Source: Gammaproteobacteria bacterium
GTDB taxonomy: Bacteria > Pseudomonadota > Gammaproteobacteria > Pseudomonadales > Pseudohongiellaceae
DNA: 41,220 nt
Reading direction: 5' to 3'
Assembly (NCBI GenBank): GCA_030654835.1
Contig: JAURWS010000011.1
Coordinates: 1-41,220 of the forward strand
Position numbers and translations under genes: made by a program. The notes under the pieces were generated by a model. It had not been told where the DNA came from. It saw nothing but the letters and a program-made list of their open reading frames with translations, and did no database searches. Positions 526-9,932 of this stretch are shown piece after piece (within the stretch, counting starts at the first letter, position 1; each line of letters opens with the position of its first letter).

Positions 526-1527
526 GTGCCTTCCGATACGAATGAAAGCAAGAAAATCTTTGTCTCCATCGCCTGTTTCATGGACAGCGATGTCGTCAAC
601 ACCGTCAATGATCTGTTTCGTCAGGCGAAATTTTCCGAGCGCATCAGCGTCGGGATTTGTCTGCAATATGCGCCTGAGCTCTGTGAAAAAGGCATAGATG
701 GACATGGCGACTTTGCGGAACTGGACACCATCGACAGGGTGCGGATCGACAAGCTTCATTACACCGAAGCACGCGGTCCGATCTACGCACGCTATCGCTG
801 CGAGAAGCTATTGCGCGATGAAGATTTTTTTCTGCAGATTGATTGCCACAGTCGCTTCTTCGCGAACTGGGACGAGATACTACTGGAAGAGTTCGCGCAC
901 TGTCGGGAGGTGAGTGACAAGGTCATTATTTCTCATTATCCGATTTCGATTACGGACATGACCAATCCAGAACGACTGAATATGATTGGCAGAATAGATC
1001 GTTTCCGCGAAGTCAGTACGGACGATATCAAGATGCACGGCACGCTGGTGCCGATTCAGAGCAACCCGCAATCAGGCTTCGGGATCAGCGCCGCCATGTT
1101 GTTTATGGAGTCATCCGTCAAGCGCGCGCTTCCTTACGATGCGAATCTGCATAATGGCTTGCACGCGGCGGAGCAGTTTCTCTATTCCGCCAGGCTATGG
1201 ACGGCAGGCTATGATTTTCTGGTGCCGACACGTCACGCACTAGCCACGGAATACCTCTCCAACCGCGATCGCATTCCTGATCCAGCGTGGCAACATTACT
1301 GCAGTGAGTACAACAAGTGGCGATTGAAAACCTGGACGAAGGTGAAATATTACCTGGAGCTGGATGACCTCGCTCAGGTGGACGAGAGCTATCAAGTCGA
1401 TGTGCGTGAGAATCGGGCACACTTCGCACCCGGGACGATAAGGACGCTGGTTGACTACTATCACTTTACCGGGCTGCACGCCGAGCTGATCAAATACTTT
1501 CCTTTCTATGCGCAGCGACACGCGTAG
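526..1527 (+). CDS. GT60-family GlcNAc-transferase (Skp1 GnT-like, PF11397)
   Basis: A 333-residue protein with no signal peptide or membrane segment, so probably cytoplasmic. It shows the hallmarks of the GlcNAc family founded by the Dictyostelium Skp1 hydroxyproline GlcNAc-transferase: the opening strand KKIFVSIACFMD (residues 9-20), DLFRQAKFSERISVGIC, the EARGPIYARY block (81-90), and the metal/nucleotide-sugar site FFLQIDCHSRFF (101-112) with D106 and H108. Later blocks such as LWTAGYDFLVPTRH are also family-like. The start is GTG at 526, with GGAG at 515-518 upstream. Known for the family: transfer of GlcNAc from UDP-GlcNAc to hydroxyproline of a protein. Inferred here: the same chemistry. 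The next gene, convergent 40 bases away, is a prolyl-hydroxylase-like 2OG dioxygenase, which would make the required acceptor. Confidence 0.8.
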   Translation: MPSDTNESKKIFVSIACFMDSDVVNTVNDLFRQAKFSERISVGICLQYAPELCEKGIDGHGDFAELDTIDRVRIDKLHYTEARGPIYARYRCEKLLRDEDFFLQIDCHSRFFANWDEILLEEFAHCREVSDKVIISHYPISITDMTNPERLNMIGRIDRFREVSTDDIKMHGTLVPIQSNPQSGFGISAAMLFMESSVKRALPYDANLHNGLHAAEQFLYSARLWTAGYDFLVPTRHALATEYLSNRDRIPDPAWQHYCSEYNKWRLKTWTKVKYYLELDDLAQVDESYQVDVRENRAHFAPGTIRTLVDYYHFTGLHAELIKYFPFYAQRHA

Positions 1528-1567
1528 AGAATTTACCTTTTCTGCAATGCCTGATAGACCTGCGGCC

Positions 1568-2599
1568 TTATTCGCTCTCCGGCACGATGCGATTGATCTG
1601 CATGTCACAAATGTCGCGCCGTACCAGAAACCTGAAGCGTTCCAGGTCTGGCTGCAGCCGTGCCTCTTCCTCGGCGAACAGGAATGACACCACGACATAG
1701 CGCTTGCCCTTCCCGATTTCCTTCACCTGATGGTAAAGCGAACCGGGGAAGATGATTGCGGAACACTTGGGGGCCTGAACGACGGTGTCGTTGTATTCCG
1801 GGAACACGACGCCCCCTTCTTCGAAGTCATCGTTCAGGATCAATGTCATGGCGTAGCGACGATGCAGATGTGGGAATATCGTGTCGCGATGCCTGCCGAA
1901 AGTCCCACCCACTTGCGAGTCGTAGCAGCAGACCTTGTAGGTCTCGCGATGACTGATGTCCGAATAGAATACTTTTCTGATCTCCGGAAGCATGGACTTG
2001 CAGAGTTTGTTGTCGAGCTCCCGTTCAAGATCCATAGGAGGGTGGATATGGGCGCGCGATTTGTAACTGCCTGAGTTTATTTCGGCCTTGTCCTGATTGT
2101 TGTCGAGGTAGGCGATCAAGCGTTGTGCGAGATTGTCGGAAATGACATCCGGGATGATCAGCAGTGGCGCCGGTATGTTGCGAACCGCGAGCGTGTTCTG
2201 TGGAGGAATCTGCGCAATCAGTGCCGCGAAGTCATTGCCAATATTGACGTTGATCAACTTCAAGTTCCTGTCGCACAGAAAGACTCCGAACCTGGCTTCC
2301 GGCGGCATGAACAGCCGGTACACGTTGGGATCATGAAAGAGCCGGTCATTGCTGATCGCCACAGGTCTCTCACTGATGACAAAGGTGTAATAGCCCCTAC
2401 TCACCCTCAAAGTAGCTTCGATCTCGGTCTGCGGCAAGTTCGAGTCGATGAAGATCAGCAGGTTGTGATAACTCGCCATTACCTGCATGTCCAACTTGCG
2501 TTCACCGTGCAGAATGTAGAAGTACGGGACGTAGTCTCCCACCTCCAGTCGGCTGGAATATTGAATGTTGTTCTGACGTGGGGTGACTTCAAGCTTCAT
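1568..2599 (-). CDS. 2-oxoglutarate/Fe(II) dioxygenase, prolyl 4-hydroxylase-like, with redoxin-like N-domain
   Basis: A 343-residue protein in two parts. Residues about 15-130 resemble a peroxiredoxin/thioredoxin fold (RLEVGDYVPYFYI, then FGVFLCDRNLKLINV) but lack a CxxC or peroxidatic Cys at the expected place, so this part is probably structural. Residues about 145-315 form a P4Hc-type 2OG-Fe(II) domain with Fe ligands H237, D239 (GRHRD) and H290 (YHQV), and R300 (GKGKRYVVVSF) to bind 2-oxoglutarate. There is no signal peptide. The ATG at 2599 has a purine-rich GAGAAG upstream. Expected activity is hydroxylation of a protein side chain, most likely proline, using O2 and 2-oxoglutarate. It is convergent with the GT60 gene and divergent from the proline-rich secreted protein. 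A different substrate, such as a ribosomal protein or EF-Tu, remains possible. Confidence 0.8.
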   Translation of the reverse strand: MKLEVTPRQNNIQYSSRLEVGDYVPYFYILHGERKLDMQVMASYHNLLIFIDSNLPQTEIEATLRVSRGYYTFVISERPVAISNDRLFHDPNVYRLFMPPEARFGVFLCDRNLKLINVNIGNDFAALIAQIPPQNTLAVRNIPAPLLIIPDVISDNLAQRLIAYLDNNQDKAEINSGSYKSRAHIHPPMDLERELDNKLCKSMLPEIRKVFYSDISHRETYKVCCYDSQVGGTFGRHRDTIFPHLHRRYAMTLILNDDFEEGGVVFPEYNDTVVQAPKCSAIIFPGSLYHQVKEIGKGKRYVVVSFLFAEEEARLQPDLERFRFLVRRDICDMQINRIVPESE

Positions 2600-2783
2600 C
2601 GGCTTCTCTTGTATTGGGCCTTATCGGTGCACTGGAGAGTGTAATCCGGGAGAGGCCAATTGAAAATCGCGACCGTGTTCACACAAACAAATATTCTGTT
2701 GCATTGAGTCAGTATATTTTCGCGACAGTGGGGTACACTGACCGGGGATCGTACGAGATTTCGTTGTTTAAGAGGAGATGGGT

Positions 2784-4649
2784 ATGACGATGAAGAAACG
2801 ACTAATTTCCAGCGCAATTGTGGCTGTCATGTGCGGGCTGTATCTGCCGGTTGCCTCAGCACAGTTGCCTCCACCGCCAGATGGAACTACCACACCGCCA
2901 CCGGGTGATGCTACCAAACCCCCCACGGGCGAAACGACCACACCTCCTCCCGGCGGGACAACTACACCTCCCCCGGACGGAACGACCACGCCACCGCCCG
3001 GTGGAACCACTACACCTCCTCCGGGCGGGACGACCACGCCACCACCCGGTGGAACCACTACACCTCCTCCGGGCGGAACGACTATGCCTCCCGGCGGTAC
3101 AACGGTTCCCCCTCTGCCGGCACCACCGACTGATTTCACCAACGTCAAGCCGGAGGACTTTTTCCAGCAGTTCAAGCCAACGGATTTCTCCGGATTCACG
3201 GGAACGACGATGGACAACATGAAGCCGGAGTTCATGCAGAACTTCACGCCGGAGCACATTGCGAACCTGACACCGGACTCGATCGGGGCTCTCGACAAGA
3301 CGCAATTCCAGAATCTGGCGCCCACAGCGATGACTGGCTTCAGTGCAGATCAGCTGCAGAAGCTTGATCCAACCGTGATGTCCGGCATGACCGCTACTCA
3401 GCTCGGTGCCTTCAAGCCTGAGGCGATGGCAGGCATGAAACCTGAACAGATCGGGGCAATGGCGCCCGAGATGATGTCCAAATTCACTCCGGAGCAGTTC
3501 ATCAAGCTGGATGCCAAGGCTTTTGAGGGCATTACGCCGCAGCAGATGACGGCGCTGTCCGGTACACAGATTGGTGCAATGGACAAAAACAAGCTGGGGG
3601 CTTTGTCACCCGACGCTATCAATGCCATGAGTAATGATGTGCTCGGTTCCATGAACAAGACCGAGTTCAAGAACATGAATAGCGAAGACTTCTCCAAGAT
3701 GATGGTGAACTTCGATCCTGCCAAGTTCGCGCCCAGCCAGCTGACGGACTTCATTCCGCCCAGCTGGAGCATGAACGCGCAGACCGGGCAGTTGACGGCC
3801 CCGCCGGGAGCAGAGCTGCAGTTCAAGGCGCTGCCGAGCCTGGATACATCGACTATGCAGATGCCCACGTTGCCGGATCTGAACTCCAAGCTCGCGCTTG
3901 GGGGTACTGCGACTGGCGGCAATACGGTCCTGCAGGGAATGACCCAGGCACTCGCCAACTTTGACCCCAATCTTAGGTTTGAGCAGGTAGGCGGCATCCT
4001 CAATGTCAGGGGAACCGGGGCCAATTCAGGCCCAATGGCGGCATTCATCCCGGATTCGAATGCCATGGTGCAGGCTCCTGCTGGCTCCATTCCGGGTATC
4101 ACTGTGGACGCGACGGGCAAGTTCGTCCTCACCACTCAGGAAGGCTACATGGTGCCTGTGATCCCTACGCTGCAGAATCCGACAGCACTGATCAGCGCCG
4201 TTCCTGGTTTGACACTGGATGTTGCGGACAAAGGGGGAACCTCGATCAAGATGCCCGGCGCCAACCCTCTCAACGGCATCGCCGACCCGTTTATCACCAC
4301 CTCTACTCAGCCGCCGGGAATCTATCGCTCTGGTGAGAAGGGTAACGAGGAGGCGTTGATGGTGTATCCGGATGGCACAGCTCAGAAGATGAAGCCCACC
4401 ATTCAGAGCCCTGATGAGTTCCAGAACGCCACCAAAGAAATACCTCAGGTCGGCGATCTGAAGGTGAATGTCGATGGCAGCATCACACTGAAGTTCGATG
4501 GTCAGCCGCTGACGTTGAAGCCTGAGTTCGAAGTCGTTCCTGGCGCCACAGGAACCACCGTGACGCCTTCGATCAGGCTGATCGATTCCACCACGGCGGA
4601 GTTCACGAATGCCCGTGGCGACAAGCAGCGATTCTATGTAAAGCCGTAG
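2784..4649 (+). CDS. Secreted Pro/Thr-rich octapeptide-repeat protein
   Basis: The ATG at 2784 is chosen because AGAGGAG at 2771-2777 lies six bases upstream; an ATG at 2778 overlaps that site and one at 2790 is also possible. The 621-residue product begins with a Sec signal peptide (MKKRLISS..., cleavage likely after VASA, residue 26). Residues 30-101 are nine octads of the PPPGGTTT type. Residues 155-298 are 18 exact-length octads of the form xPxxφxxL/M. The remaining ~320 residues are Gly/Pro/Thr-rich and probably beta-structured, with no membrane helix. It is monocistronic, closed by a strong hairpin at 4663. It shares a 184-base divergent region with the hydroxylase gene. Function unknown; it may be an exported surface or matrix protein and a plausible substrate of the two enzymes to its left. 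Confidence 0.75.
   Translation: MTMKKRLISSAIVAVMCGLYLPVASAQLPPPPDGTTTPPPGDATKPPTGETTTPPPGGTTTPPPDGTTTPPPGGTTTPPPGGTTTPPPGGTTTPPPGGTTMPPGGTTVPPLPAPPTDFTNVKPEDFFQQFKPTDFSGFTGTTMDNMKPEFMQNFTPEHIANLTPDSIGALDKTQFQNLAPTAMTGFSADQLQKLDPTVMSGMTATQLGAFKPEAMAGMKPEQIGAMAPEMMSKFTPEQFIKLDAKAFEGITPQQMTALSGTQIGAMDKNKLGALSPDAINAMSNDVLGSMNKTEFKNMNSEDFSKMMVNFDPAKFAPSQLTDFIPPSWSMNAQTGQLTAPPGAELQFKALPSLDTSTMQMPTLPDLNSKLALGGTATGGNTVLQGMTQALANFDPNLRFEQVGGILNVRGTGANSGPMAAFIPDSNAMVQAPAGSIPGITVDATGKFVLTTQEGYMVPVIPTLQNPTALISAVPGLTLDVADKGGTSIKMPGANPLNGIADPFITTSTQPPGIYRSGEKGNEEALMVYPDGTAQKMKPTIQSPDEFQNATKEIPQVGDLKVNVDGSITLKFDGQPLTLKPEFEVVPGATGTTVTPSIRLIDSTTAEFTNARGDKQRFYVKP
2871..3086 (+). repeat. Nine tandem 24-bp units encoding PPPGGTTT-type octads
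   Basis: Translation in the frame of the surrounding gene gives PPPDGTTT, PPPGDATK, PPTGETTT, PPPGGTTT, PPPDGTTT, PPPGGTTT three times and PPPGGTTM, then a degenerate seven-residue unit. The later units are also nearly identical in DNA, so this tract probably expands and contracts by slippage or recombination. Poly-proline triplets followed by Gly and Thr resemble extensin-like hydroxyproline glycosylation substrates. Confidence 0.9.
3246..3677 (+). repeat. Eighteen in-phase degenerate octads (xPxxφxxL/M/F)
   Basis: The protein reads without any register slip as TPEHIANL, TPDSIGAL, DKTQFQNL, APTAMTGF, SADQLQKL, DPTVMSGM, TATQLGAF, KPEAMAGM, KPEQIGAM, APEMMSKF, TPEQFIKL, DAKAFEGI, TPQQMTAL, SGTQIGAM, DKNKLGAL, SPDAINAM, SNDVLGSM and NKTEFKNM. 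A hydrophobic residue is fixed at positions 5 and 8. Unlike the upstream proline tract, the DNA has diverged, so the unit is held by protein structure rather than recent duplication. It resembles the TTAQIAAL-type octads of some large proteobacterial surface proteins. Confidence 0.88.
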
Positions 4650-5288: not shown

Positions 5289-8200
5289 ATGACCTCGCCT
5301 TCTATCACTTCCCCCGCCTATGCCGAGCTGCATTGCCTCAGCAATTTTACTTTCCTGCATGGCGCCTCCTCTCCGGAGGAGCTGGTGGCACAGGCTTGCG
5401 CGCTCGGTTATGCCGCGCTGGCCATCACCGATGAGTGTACGCTCAGCGGTGTCGTGCGGGCTCACATGGCGGCGCGCAACACCGGGTTGAAGCTGATCAT
5501 CGGCAGCCGCTTCGTGCTGGAGGATGGCCTGTGTGTTGTGCTGCTGGCGCGCAACCGGCGTGGCTATGGGCAGCTCTCTCATCTGATCACACTGGCGCGG
5601 CGGCAGGCGGTCAAGGGCCGCTATCGTATGGACCGTGCGCTGGTGGAGGCACGGGCTCTTGCCGATGGGCTGGATGCCTGCCTCGCCCTGTGGGTGCCCC
5701 CTTTCCGGAGCTCGACAGACGATGAGCTGGCTGCCGAGGAAGGTGCGTGGCTGAGTGGTCTGTTGCCCGGACGGGTCTGGATTGCCGTTGAGTTGTTGCT
5801 GCAGGGAGCGGACCGCCGTCGGCTTGCCGCTCTAGACGCGCTGGGGCAGAGGTTGCACTTGCCGTTGGTGGCCAGCGGTGCAGTAACCATGCACGTCCCG
5901 GAACGGCGGATGCTACGCGACACCCTGGCGGCCATTCGTCTGGGTTGCCGGGTCGATGAACTCGGCTTCGATATTCCGGGCAATGGTGAACAGCATCTGC
6001 GGCCACTGGCGCGACTGGCGAAACTGTATCCACCGGAGCTGCTGACGGAGAGTGTCCGCATTGCCTCTCTTTGCCAGTTTTCGCTGAGTGAGCTGCGCTA
6101 CGAATACCCCCACGAACTGGTGCCGACCGGGCACACTGCCAGCAGCTGGTTGCGTGAACTGACCGAGCAGGGCATGCAACAACGCTGGCCGCAGGGCGTT
6201 TCTCCCGCAGTGCATGCGCTGGTGGAGAAGGAACTGGCGCTGGTGGCGGAGCTGGCCTATGAGCATTTCTTTCTCACGGTGCACGACATCGTGGTGTTTG
6301 CCCGCAGCCGCCACATTCTCTGTCAGGGGCGCGGCTCGGCGGCGAATTCGGTGATCTGCTACTGCCTCGGCATCACGTCAGTGGACCCCGCGCGCATGCA
6401 GCTGCTGTTCGAGCGCTTCCTCTCCAAAGAGCGCGACGAGCCCCCGGACATCGATGTCGATTTCGAGCACGAGCGCCGCGAGGAAGTGATCCAGTACATC
6501 TACGCCAAGTACGGGCGTGAGCGGGCTGCTCTGGCTGCCACGGTCATCTGCTATCGCCCGCGCAGCGCGATTCGCGATGTGGCCAAAGCGCTCGGTATCG
6601 ATGAAGCGCTTGCCGAGCGGCTGAGCAAGTCGGTGGACTGGTATGCCGAGCGGATTGAGGCCTCTCTGGATCCAGATGAACTGGGCATCGCACCGGCTTT
6701 GCTGCAACGGTTGGTGACGCTGGTGCAGAGCCTGATTGGCTTCCCGCGCCACCTCTCGCAGCACGTGGGCGGTTTCGTGATCAGCCAAGGCCCGCTCTCG
6801 GAGCTGGTGCCGGTGGAGAACGCGGCGATGGCGGAGCGCACCGTCATCCAATGGGAGAAAGACGATCTGGAGGCGCTGGGCCTGTTGAAGGTGGACGTGC
6901 TGGCGCTGGGCATGCTCACCGCAATCCGCAAGGCACTGCAGCTGGTACAGGCCACCACGGGGCAGACACTGGAGATGCGCGACATCCCCGCCGATGATGC
7001 GGCGGTGTACGAGATGATCTGTGCGGCCGACACTGTGGGCGTTTTCCAGATCGAATCGCGTGCGCAGATGAGCATGCTGCCACGGCTGCAACCGCGCAAT
7101 TACTATGATCTGGTGATTCAGATTGCCATCGTGCGGCCCGGACCGATCCAGGGCAACATGGTGCATCCTTATCTGGCGCGGCGCGCCGGACGTGAGCCGG
7201 TGTCCTATCCGAGTGACGCCGTCCGGCAGGTGCTGGAGCGCACGTTAGGCATTCCCATCTTCCAGGAGCAGGTGATGAAGATCGCCATCGTCGCCGCAGG
7301 TTTCAGTGGCGGTGAGGCGGATCAGCTACGGCGGGCGATGGCGGCCTGGAAGAAGAAAGGTGGCCTTGAACCTTTCCGCGACAAGCTGATCCAGGGCATG
7401 ACCGAGCGTGGCTACAGTGAAGCCTTCGCGCTGCAGATCTATAGCCAGATCAAGGGGTTCGGCGAGTACGGCTTTCCCGAATCCCATTCGGCCAGCTTTG
7501 CGCTGCTGGCCTATGTCTCGTCATGGCTGAAGTATCACCACCCCGCCGCCTTCACCTGCGCGCTCCTGAACAGTCACCCGATGGGTTTCTATGCGCCTGC
7601 GCAGCTGGTGCAGGATGCGCAGCGGCACGGCATCACGGTGCTGCCTGTGACGGTCAACCACAGTGCGGTGGATTGCACGCTGGAGCCTGCCCCGGACAGG
7701 ACATGTCAGCCTGGCCTGCAGCAAGAGCGACAACAGGAGTTGCGACTGGGCTTGCGGCTCGTGAAAGGGCTGTCGCTGGATGGCGCTCAGCGTGTGTATG
7801 AGGCGCGGCGCCAGGGAGTATTCCGCACCGTGCCGGAACTGGTCGAGCGCTGTGCTCTCAACAGCAAGGATCGCGAGGCGCTCGCCGCCGCTGATGCCTT
7901 GCAGGGGCTGGCCAGTGACAGGCACAGGGCCTTCTGGGAGGTCGCCGGTTATGAGGAGAGCCTACCGCTTTTTGCGGCGCCAGAGGTGGCGGGTCAAGAG
8001 CCCGTCGACTGGCCGCAGGCTGGGGCCGATAAGCAGGCGTTTGTGGAGATCATGCTGCCCAGACCCACCGAGGCACAGAACATCATCGCCGATTACGTCA
8101 GCACCGGGCTGACACTGCGTCGCCATCCACTCGCGCTGCTGCGCTCGCACCTGCAGCGCTATCGGGTCGTGACGGCGGCGCAACTGCCGCAGCTGGCAGA

Positions 8201-8486
8201 TGGCTCGCTCGTGAAGGTGGTCGGCATCGTCACCTCGCGGCAGCGCCCGCAGACGGCTTCCGGGGTCACTTTCATGACGCTGGAAGATGAGAGTGGTTTT
8301 CTCAATGTGGTGGTGTGGTCAACCTTGTCGGAACGCCACCGTCTGACAGTGCGCGAGGCGTTGCTGCTGGGAGTGAGTGGCCGGGTGCAGATCAGCGAGG
8401 GGGTGGTTCATGTGCTGGCAGGGGAGCTGGTCGATCTCAGCTCCTGGCTGGCGGCCCTGGAGCTGAGGTCGCGGGATTTCTGCTAG
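5289..8486 (+). CDS. dnaE2: Error-prone DNA polymerase III alpha subunit DnaE2
   Basis: A 1065-residue C-family polymerase of DnaE2 type. The N-terminus (YAELHCLSNFTFLHGAS) is the DnaE2 form of the PHP domain, lacking the histidine cluster of a proofreading PHP. Catalytic aspartates are D387 and D389 (PPDIDVDFEHERR) and D536 (LLKVDVLALGML). A C-terminal OB-fold (about 970-1040, LVKVVGIVTSRQRPQ) ends in the typical SRDFC. It performs translesion synthesis after DNA damage together with ImuA and ImuB, which are encoded convergently with only nine bases between stop codons. Expression should be SOS-controlled through the box at 5254. The ATG at 5289 has no ribosome binding site. Confidence 0.95.
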   Translation: MTSPSITSPAYAELHCLSNFTFLHGASSPEELVAQACALGYAALAITDECTLSGVVRAHMAARNTGLKLIIGSRFVLEDGLCVVLLARNRRGYGQLSHLITLARRQAVKGRYRMDRALVEARALADGLDACLALWVPPFRSSTDDELAAEEGAWLSGLLPGRVWIAVELLLQGADRRRLAALDALGQRLHLPLVASGAVTMHVPERRMLRDTLAAIRLGCRVDELGFDIPGNGEQHLRPLARLAKLYPPELLTESVRIASLCQFSLSELRYEYPHELVPTGHTASSWLRELTEQGMQQRWPQGVSPAVHALVEKELALVAELAYEHFFLTVHDIVVFARSRHILCQGRGSAANSVICYCLGITSVDPARMQLLFERFLSKERDEPPDIDVDFEHERREEVIQYIYAKYGRERAALAATVICYRPRSAIRDVAKALGIDEALAERLSKSVDWYAERIEASLDPDELGIAPALLQRLVTLVQSLIGFPRHLSQHVGGFVISQGPLSELVPVENAAMAERTVIQWEKDDLEALGLLKVDVLALGMLTAIRKALQLVQATTGQTLEMRDIPADDAAVYEMICAADTVGVFQIESRAQMSMLPRLQPRNYYDLVIQIAIVRPGPIQGNMVHPYLARRAGREPVSYPSDAVRQVLERTLGIPIFQEQVMKIAIVAAGFSGGEADQLRRAMAAWKKKGGLEPFRDKLIQGMTERGYSEAFALQIYSQIKGFGEYGFPESHSASFALLAYVSSWLKYHHPAAFTCALLNSHPMGFYAPAQLVQDAQRHGITVLPVTVNHSAVDCTLEPAPDRTCQPGLQQERQQELRLGLRLVKGLSLDGAQRVYEARRQGVFRTVPELVERCALNSKDREALAAADALQGLASDRHRAFWEVAGYEESLPLFAAPEVAGQEPVDWPQAGADKQAFVEIMLPRPTEAQNIIADYVSTGLTLRRHPLALLRSHLQRYRVVTAAQLPQLADGSLVKVVGIVTSRQRPQTASGVTFMTLEDESGFLNVVVWSTLSERHRLTVREALLLGVSGRVQISEGVVHVLAGELVDLSSWLAALELRSRDFC

Positions 8487-8495
8487 TCATCGTTG

Positions 8496-9932
8496 CTAAT
8501 CAAAGATGCCGTGCAGGAACCAGTTCCGCTCGCGGCCATGCTCTTCACAACGTTCGTGGAATATCCACAGCTGCATGCCCTGCCGGTTGCCTGCCACGTA
8601 GTAGTCGCGCCGGATCTCCTGGCCGCTCCACCAGCCTGTCTCGATACGCTCCGGGCCGCTCAACAGACGCAGGCTGCTGCGGTAATACAAGCGGCCCTGC
8701 TCCTGTCGCAAGGCGAGAGGTTCTGGCAGTAACCAGCAGGGCCGCCGATTGGTTGTGGCAGCTGCCGTGATGGAGCTGGCCGCGCCGACTGTTGAGCCGT
8801 ACACCAACCCCTGCCCCGCCTGCTCCGGGCGATGTTCGTTCCTGCAGAGAAGACTGCACACGGCGGCGTTGCCCAGGCGAGCCTGGAGCCGTTCCAGCAG
8901 CGGGGTGATGAGGTGGCGTGAGGGGAGGTGCGCCTGGTCTATTCCTGAAAGTGAATGAACACTGGCTTGAAAAGGCTCGAAATGCCTGACTTCAATCTGG
9001 ATGCCGAGGACCGGCGCGGGCAGCACCAAGGTGTCGAGGTGGGTCTGTACGAGCAACCGCAGATGTTCCTCTGCACGGGTGGGTTGACGCAGTTCAATAT
9101 CCAGCGCTGTGCCCTGCCGGTGTTCATGCTCCAAGGTCAAGCTCACATAGGTAGCGGCCAGTTCGCGTCGGCGCAGAAAGCCACAGAGCCGGGCCAGCAA
9201 TTCTTCGGCGCCATGCAGCAGGAGTTGGGTGTTCTCCACAGCGTACTCAAACTCCAGGCTGGAGCGGAAGAGGGGCGGACTCTGGTAGGGTTTGATCGGG
9301 CTGGCAACCTTGCCGAGACAGCGGTCGAGCTGACCAACGAAGTCCGCGCCGAAGCGTTGTCGGAGTCCGTGCTGAGGCAGACGCCAGAGATCGCGCAACC
9401 GCCGCAGGCCGCTGTTGTGCAATTGCCTGCTTTTGCGTGCGGGCTGAGGCAGCAGCTGCACGGGCAACCTGCCCAGTGCCGAGCGCAAATTTTCCGGGCG
9501 ATGTATCAGCACGTTGCAGCCTGCCTGCGCCAGCAGCAAGCTGGCAGCGGGAGTGGGGCTGGCGGCCTGCTGAATGTCGCCGGGCAGCCCCCAGGACTGC
9601 AGCAGCGGCAGCAACTGTTCCTGCAGACGGTTGCGGATGCGCTGGATACCCCCGAAATAATTGAGTGTGCTGCGCACCTCGAAGACGAAGCTGTCGGGGG
9701 GCTCTATGCTGACGTTCGCGCTGAGGCTGCCGAGCAGTTCCGCGATCGCAGCTTGTCGCGCGGTGCACGCCAGTGCGTCGGTTGTCATCAGTTGCGGCAG
9801 GCAGACGGCGTACCACAGTGGCGTGCGCCGTCCATCTGTCTGCCGTTTCCCGGTAGGCGACTTGGGCACGACCGGGCGCACGACATGGAGTGTCCGGGGC
9901 AGCAGCGGCAACTGGTAGAGTCTTCCGCTCAT
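8496..9932 (-). CDS. imuB: ImuB, inactive Y-family polymerase of the mutasome
   Basis: A 478-residue ImuB. Recognisable blocks are ANVSIEPPDSFVFEV, STLNYFGG, ASPTPAASLLLAQAG, the helix-hairpin-helix area (RRLRDLWRLPQHGLRQRFG), the little finger, and the C-terminal RPCWLLPEPLALR and RRDYYVAG blocks. Polymerase carboxylates are absent, as in known ImuBs, so it acts as a scaffold for DnaE2. The start at 9932 overlaps the imuA stop as ATGA, which supports translational coupling and makes the unusual N-terminus real. That N-terminus (about residues 1-38) carries QLPLL at 7-11, a beta-clamp-binding type motif. The usual QLxLF before LLERLQARLG is missing. The stretch between LPQL (45-48) and the EPPD block is about 50 residues shorter than I expect for the family. 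Confidence 0.9.
   Translation of the reverse strand: MSGRLYQLPLLPRTLHVVRPVVPKSPTGKRQTDGRRTPLWYAVCLPQLMTTDALACTARQAAIAELLGSLSANVSIEPPDSFVFEVRSTLNYFGGIQRIRNRLQEQLLPLLQSWGLPGDIQQAASPTPAASLLLAQAGCNVLIHRPENLRSALGRLPVQLLPQPARKSRQLHNSGLRRLRDLWRLPQHGLRQRFGADFVGQLDRCLGKVASPIKPYQSPPLFRSSLEFEYAVENTQLLLHGAEELLARLCGFLRRRELAATYVSLTLEHEHRQGTALDIELRQPTRAEEHLRLLVQTHLDTLVLPAPVLGIQIEVRHFEPFQASVHSLSGIDQAHLPSRHLITPLLERLQARLGNAAVCSLLCRNEHRPEQAGQGLVYGSTVGAASSITAAATTNRRPCWLLPEPLALRQEQGRLYYRSSLRLLSGPERIETGWWSGQEIRRDYYVAGNRQGMQLWIFHERCEEHGRERNWFLHGIFD

Follow-up and report, generated by a model that had tools for sequence, protein, structure and literature searches.

Whether bacteria couple a protein hydroxylase to a glycosyltransferase of family GT60, as protists do in the oxygen-sensing pathway that builds hydroxyproline-linked N-acetylglucosamine (GlcNAc) on Skp1 (PMC8724618), is the question raised by three genes near the start of contig JAURWS010000011.1 from a gammaproteobacterium of the family Pseudohongiellaceae (assembly GCA_030654835.1). 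We refer to the whole stretch of 41,220 nucleotides as the window. The three genes encode a GT60-type transferase, an oxygenase dependent on 2-oxoglutarate (2OG) and Fe(II), and a secreted protein with Pro/Thr-rich octads, hereafter the octad protein. An initial annotation had proposed that they form a bacterial equivalent of the Skp1 system. Sequence comparison supports hydroxylase-GT60 coupling in bacteria, because the two enzymes of the window are co-inherited, a genuine prolyl 4-hydroxylase (P4H) is paired with GT60 in SAR86, and fusions of both P4H-GT60 and GT60-2OG type occur elsewhere. The core of the proposal, a bacterial modification system of hydroxylase and GT60, therefore survives and reaches beyond the window; its equivalence to the Skp1 system held as far as repeated pairing of the enzymes goes, while a hydroxyproline acceptor at the window itself was not supported. 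For the window we tentatively favour, at slightly under an even chance, a small protein-modification locus in which the GT60 enzyme would glycosylate the octad stalk and the oxygenase would be its coupled partner. The annotated arrangement of three consecutive genes, convergent and then divergent, agreed in coordinates and strands with the open reading frame (ORF) calls, and the locus is laid out as follows.

526-1527, plus strand: GT60-type glycosyltransferase gene (PF11397), 333 aa, no signal peptide by eye.
900-2790: mosaic block comprising the 3′ two thirds of the GT60 gene, the entire oxygenase gene and the octad gene promoter, from the comparison of G000 with G012.
1568-2599, minus strand: gene for a redoxin-like N-terminal part plus 2OG-Fe(II) oxygenase (PKHD/prolyl-lysyl-hydroxylase superfamily), 343 aa.
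2600-2777: intergenic region of 178 bp from which the oxygenase and octad genes diverge, from ORF coordinates.
2778-4649, plus strand: gene for the secreted octad protein, candidate substrate, 623 aa.
2859-3134, plus strand: Pro/Thr/Gly repeat region of the octad protein, with 9 PPP, 7 TTT and 4 exact PPPGGTTT units.
3534-3632, plus strand: ALTTAQ repeat (PF20080), octad protein residues 253-285 (4.4e-8, 33.1 bits, cut-off 26.4).

In the window's own genome and 37 relatives, the GT60 gene and the oxygenase orthologue were found together in 3 of 38 genomes and were both missing from the other 35, of which 11 belong to the genus of the window; five relatives have more distant 2OG proteins (E 8e-22 to 5e-4), which we did not treat as orthologues. 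Gene order was identical in all three enzyme-bearing genomes, with the octad gene adjacent in each. When the DNA of the window was compared with that of G012, identity per 100-bp bin was 53-81% within about 900-2790 and mostly 92-100% outside; two bins that belong to the repeat region and lie just beyond this block reached 81-84%. Given this sharp drop at the enzyme pair between near-identical flanks, the pair seems to have been swapped as a unit, leaving the octad gene and the RDD-family gene downstream of it nearly unchanged.

Linkage of PF11397 with hydroxylase genes, which the initial annotation had anticipated across genomes, was found in the relatives of the window, in a SAR86 family and in two fusion proteins. 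In SAR86 (locus L006, 9312-10996) the GT60 gene is divergent from a P4H-family gene whose product has as its best solved relatives the P4H of Chlamydomonas (2e-33) and a bacterial P4H (1e-32), and which also matches human C-P4H (7e-26). Across the 107 genomes of the family to which this genome belongs, GT60 was present in 46 and P4H in 47, with 45 genomes carrying both, 1 carrying GT60 only (a match at a contig edge), 2 carrying P4H only and 59 carrying neither, a tally of related genomes rather than of independent events. The P4H and GT60 matches lay 149-217 bp apart in all 45 genomes with both, and the P4H gene was the divergent neighbour of GT60 in 20 of 20 loci read (L301-L320, from the 46 genomes). 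A proteobacterium of another class, G713, encodes P4H, GT60 and a tubulin-tyrosine-ligase-like part in one 875-aa frame (L066, 7545-10172), which resembles the fusions of odd-even enzyme pairs common in the protist Skp1 pathway (PMC8724618). The P4H of G713 and that of SAR86 share 40% identity, but the two GT60 parts fall on opposite sides of a split in the tree (support 90/76), so that the P4H-GT60 pairing would have arisen more than once or one partner would have been replaced; a second GT60 was not found among 147 genomes of the order of G713, this genome being the only one with a match. The other fusion, in G411 (L067, 7607-13307), is a GT60 protein whose C-terminal 2OG domain narrowly misses the Pfam cut-off (26.9 bits against 27); it adjoins an RTX protein in which a GPTGETGPTG stretch looks collagen-like, and a second protein, RTX-like by eye, with PTPEP repeats. 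In addition, 5 of 80 viral P4H loci also held GT60 in one shared gene order (L228, L231, L240, L243, L244) and are likely to represent a single lineage; L228, which was the one scanned, has an O-FucT-GT60 fusion immediately after the P4H gene. These five loci look phage-like, with P4H, GT60 and, by eye, carbamoyltransferase-like genes in one run. Seen from the GT60 side the viral evidence speaks against the link, with a 2OG match in just one of the 80 loci. On this evidence SAR86 would make a cleaner case than the window for a bacterial hydroxyproline-GlcNAc pathway.

The initial annotation had described the window oxygenase as prolyl-hydroxylase-like, which was right at the level of the superfamily and not at that of the nearest relative. 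The protein had no Pfam match, and its match to PRK05467 (NCBIfam) reached 39 bits, under the curated cut-off of 143. A profile of five sequences (A6) matched PiuC (5e-8), LH3 (1e-4), P3H1 (6e-4) and a bacterial P4H (2e-3) in the PDB. The annotated residues H237, D239, H290 and R300 were intact and, like R238, invariant in the five aligned oxygenases. With its HxD...H and R residues and these profile matches the domain falls within the PKHD/prolyl-lysyl hydroxylase superfamily; with PiuC nearest and P4H matching only at 2e-3 it falls outside the PhyA/P4H family, and on sequence grounds it is nearest to PiuC/PKHD-like rather than PhyA-like enzymes. The match to the chains of PiuC, the nearest solved relative by sequence profile (PDB 9qn0, 9ghl; 225-241 aa), is confined to the C-terminal portion of the window oxygenase, whose redoxin-like N-terminal part is therefore additional to what PiuC has. 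That part gave a peroxiredoxin-like PDB profile match of 0.011 and is also present in oxygenase relatives on Niveispirillum and Rhizobium plasmids. The ratio of nonsynonymous to synonymous substitution rates (dN/dS) for the oxygenase was 0.08 in the single computable pair, dS being saturated in the other two. Since PiuC is the best PDB match and the Niveispirillum and Rhizobium plasmid relatives have no annotated GT60 within 8 kb, the oxygenase might be an unrelated passenger, engaged for example in PiuC-like iron or siderophore chemistry, beside a GT60 enzyme that alone acts on the octad protein. We consider this very unlikely, because the oxygenase is co-inherited with GT60 and diverges with it as a block, and because other 2OG domains have repeatedly and independently been paired with or fused to GT60.

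The assignment of the transferase to GT60 by the initial annotation was confirmed by profile, with membership in CAZy GT60/Pfam PF11397 at 148 bits against a curated cut-off of 21. The D106-x-H108 motif was invariant in alignments A1 (14 sequences) and A5 (32 sequences), the window sequence included in both, as were the W-D, R and G columns. A single-sequence search of the PDB with the window GT60 gave chance-level matches only. The top 50 Foldseek matches of its AlphaFold model (mean predicted local distance difference test score, pLDDT, 74) were all N-acetylgalactosaminyltransferases (GalNAc-Ts; E 6e-11 to 6.5e-8), and the predicted fold is closest to that of the polypeptide GalNAc-Ts (ppGalNAc-Ts). 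Among the relatives of the window, a GT60 dN/dS of 0.10-0.16 pointed to purifying selection, as did the value for the oxygenase.

Read by eye, the octad protein carries a signal peptide, MKKRLISSAIVAVMCGLYLPVASA followed by QL, and the two enzymes lack one, as the initial annotation had it. Its nine proline octads are nine octad-like units when variants are counted, of which only the four tabulated above read exactly PPPGGTTT. The octad region of the window is 30% Thr and 37% Pro, and it has the dense Ser/Thr(-Pro) tract expected of a mucin-type substrate. Within the genus, 5 of 14 genomes have the octad gene (own genome included; the copy in G010 ends at a contig edge), and a sixth has a remnant. 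Of these, G002, whose copy carries an in-frame TAG, and G008 have the gene without the enzymes and in other surroundings, which allowed the five octad proteins to be compared. TTT triads numbered 7, 8 and 3 with the enzymes versus 0 and 1 without, and threonine made up 25-32% of the repeat region with the enzymes versus 13-17% without, whereas proline was 33-37% in all five. With five sequences that are not independent, this comparison is a hint, not a test, and it would favour threonine over proline. Given that TTT triads, more than proline content, track the enzymes and that the oxygenase resembles PiuC more than a PhyA-type P4H, threonine appears a likelier acceptor at the window than hydroxyproline. 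Two other genomes carry ALTTTQ-repeat proteins near GT60 (L106, 4223-7441; L113, 4419-7601); among the matches listed, PF20080 matched two GT60 neighbours, which we assign to these proteins by pattern. The ALTTAQ repeat of the octad protein, of the same repeat family, does not appear in the initial annotation.

The same data bear on a strict order of the PhyA-Gnt1 type, in which the oxygenase would make hydroxyproline in the PPP units and GT60 would add GlcNAc only there. This order is established for Skp1 in Dictyostelium and Toxoplasma (PMC8724618 and PMC6939170), SAR86 pairs a genuine P4H with GT60 while G713 fuses the two, and the window oxygenase lies within the prolyl/lysyl hydroxylase superfamily. 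Against it stand the closeness of that oxygenase to PiuC rather than to PhyA or P4H, the unchanged proline percentage of octad regions without the enzymes while threonine triads change, and the family itself, some protist GT60 members starting mucin-type O-GlcNAc on Ser/Thr where others modify the Skp1 hydroxyproline (PMC8724618). We regard the strict order as unlikely for the window. The octad protein as substrate, also part of the initial annotation, agreed with the Pro/Thr-repeat neighbours of other GT60 loci, described below, and is weakened by the enzyme-less copies in G002 and G008. Those copies, elsewhere in their genomes, together with the lack of Pro/Thr tracts in the DNA analysed around the pairs of SAR86 (L006) and G713, would fit an enzyme pair that modifies another, probably cytosolic, protein, with the octad gene a neighbour by history only. 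To our reading this is rather improbable, since the octad gene adjoins the pair in all three enzyme-bearing genomes, threonine triads track the enzymes, and Pro/Thr-repeat neighbours are over-represented at GT60 loci.

PF11397 is rare: the class sample has it in 4 of 369 genomes and the phylum sample in 28 of 398 (own genome counted in both), and among 337 genomes of the class of G713 it occurs in 6; weak or fragmentary matches in G775, G821 and G1046 were dropped before the neighbourhood comparisons. Parts of type I secretion systems (T1SS; HlyD, ABC, OEP) recur beside bacterial GT60. In Phyllobacterium the gene lies near T1SS genes and an RTX-type calcium-binding protein with PTPPPTGPE repeats; in Burkholderia and Paraburkholderia it lies within type VI secretion system (T6SS) clusters; in Azospirillum it lies in a phage-tail-like cluster where TPTPTP tracts occur in a hypothetical protein and in the next gene, annotated as a tail sheath. 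G485 and G407 carry EAPTEPPT and TEPPVT repeat proteins near GT60. At L090, L092, L068 and L086, GT60 sits in T6SS (L068 by eye) or phage-tail-like clusters adjoined by RHS/PAAR, 'fimbrial' or sheath genes. The initial annotation had seen a difficulty in enzymes without export signals that act on a secreted protein; this is not fatal, because GT60 genes within T1SS, T6SS and phage-tail-like clusters are what would be expected of cytosolic action before export.

The results showed that GT60 genes lie near Pro/Thr-repeat proteins, modestly in bacteria and strongly in phages. ORFs with Pro/Thr tracts made up 11 of 229 at ranks 1-3 from bacterial GT60, with the G411 PTPEP protein counted as absent since ORF picking missed it, versus 1 of 261 farther out (Fisher 0.002) and 4 of 311 in a control set of 20 windows taken from some of these genomes (Fisher 0.017); the bacterial loci in these tests are not independent. 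At least 566 of the 600 IMG/VR stretches examined encode a GT60 relative. Pro/Thr arrays were present in 31 of 80 viral GT60 loci (1149 kb; the best 80 of at least 566) versus 2 of 80 viral loci recruited by P4H (808 kb; the best 80, a control drawn from other viruses). By rank from viral GT60, arrays were most frequent beside the gene, being found in 20 of 159 ORFs at rank 1, 3 of 122 at rank 4, 6 of 82 at rank 6 and 1 of 65 at rank 7. The arrays in the viral loci (L119-L198) read PTPTPT or are TPSVTPS-like, and several loci carry tandem GT60 copies.

GT60 loci with a Pro/Thr-repeat neighbour mostly had no 2OG gene in the stretch examined, a scarcity that again argues against hydroxyproline as the sole acceptor. 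From 201 neighbour ORFs, spurious-looking ones were removed by hand and 163 sequences (85 + 78) were scanned with Pfam; PF13640 appeared in 3 of the 163 among the matches listed, which are the 25 commonest families per set, so that a 2OG family with one matching member may be missed, and all three were hydroxylase sequences added deliberately (the SAR86 P4H and two fusion halves). A 2OG profile built from two seeds proved insensitive and was replaced by a profile based on viral P4H together with the Pfam scans. This P4H/oxygenase profile, which missed the domain in G411, matched in 5 of 46 GT60 loci from outside IMG/VR, three of them the window trio, versus 0 of 20 control windows.

Together, these data lead us to picture the window as follows. 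The GT60 enzyme would be a cytosolic polypeptide N-acetylhexosaminyltransferase, probably for alpha-GlcNAc, with a mucin-type-initiator fold, and the Pro/Thr repeat stalk of the octad protein would be decorated before Sec export, most likely on the threonines of the TTT triads. The PKHD-type oxygenase would most likely hydroxylate the same or an overlapping sequence, probably at proline, which could create extra acceptor sites or stiffen the stalk. The substrate, the acceptor residue, the sugar and the order of action are thus what we infer for this locus. Like PhyA-Gnt1 of Dictyostelium and Toxoplasma, the window would couple a 2OG-Fe(II) hydroxylase to a soluble GT60 enzyme; unlike that system, its candidate substrate is a secreted repeat protein rather than Skp1, its oxygenase is PiuC/PKHD-like with a redoxin-like N-terminal part, and its acceptor is probably threonine. 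It shares with the mucin-type alpha-GlcNAc transferases of Trypanosoma cruzi and Dictyostelium the family PF11397/GT60, a Pro/Thr-rich candidate substrate and a predicted fold near that of the ppGalNAc-Ts, and differs from those Golgi enzymes in lacking a signal peptide, in having a local 2OG partner, and in its long branch and altered C-terminal His region. HMW1C, a GT41 enzyme that makes N-linked glycans, glycosylates exported adhesins in the cytosol before Sec export. Modification before Sec export is what we propose for the window as well, where the enzyme is of GT60 and the linkage, if the enzyme is active, would be O-linked.

Several observations weigh against this picture. The GT60 and oxygenase genes are convergent, with a 40-bp gap, and do not form an operon. 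The octad gene persists in G002 and G008 without the enzymes, and PPP units differ along with the triads (9, 9 and 4 with the enzymes versus 4 and 3 without). The superfamily of the oxygenase includes hydroxylases that do not act on proline, and its structural model, built from a four-sequence alignment, reached a pLDDT of 40 and was set aside. By six-frame counts the bacterial enrichment is modest, with 19 Pro/Thr tracts in the 313 kb lying up to 4 kb from GT60 compared with 10 in 264 kb at 4-10 kb and 9 in 357 kb of control windows; the 19 include the window trio three times and tracts that look like spurious frames (L116, L072 at 6489, L107, L067 at 13015), and leave out as other-frame readings the five rows inside the GT60 gene (distance 0). 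The C-terminal His (W/Y-H-x-Y) has a role in GT-A enzymes. In the window GT60 it is off by one residue (WQHY versus WHEY) behind a 15-residue insertion, in a stretch with pLDDT below 50; a reading in which this His was lost was softened when the larger alignment showed the one-residue shift. The usual GEE is AAE, HWDDH is not kept, and the protein sits on a long branch (2.86) of the tree. Because of this branch, the altered GEE and HWDDH motifs and the displaced His, catalysis by the window GT60 is not assured.

Around the locus, the 5′ end of the window holds the tail of a gene whose G010 orthologue encodes a CBM9/DUF5916 protein. Farther downstream lie a DNA polymerase III alpha-type gene (5289-8486, plus strand; DnaE2-like by eye) and, convergent with it, a gene with a weak IMS_C match (8496-9932, minus strand; ImuB/Y-family-like).

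Bacterial PF11397 proteins are already annotated in databases as 'GlcNAc-transferase family protein', and a literature search, which covered few subscription journals, found no report of a bacterial hydroxylase-GT60 system. It is possible, though doubtful on present evidence, that the bacterial P4H-GT60 pair of SAR86 and G713 is a counterpart of PhyA-Gnt1 making hydroxyproline-linked GlcNAc, and that the window represents a branch with a PiuC-like oxygenase and a dedicated secreted substrate of Pro/Thr repeats. The recurrence of such partnerships in related bacteria and phages suggests that a modification best known from amoebae and parasites is also found in bacteria. If the chemistry is the same, the Skp1-type pathway would have a counterpart in prokaryotes that may even be its ancestor, and a possible protein mark dependent on oxygen would be present in SAR86, a group abundant in the sea. 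The association of GT60 with Pro/Thr repeats, recurring in bacteria and phages, would further point to a mucin-like kind of O-glycosylation that acts on prokaryotic surface proteins and on virion proteins.

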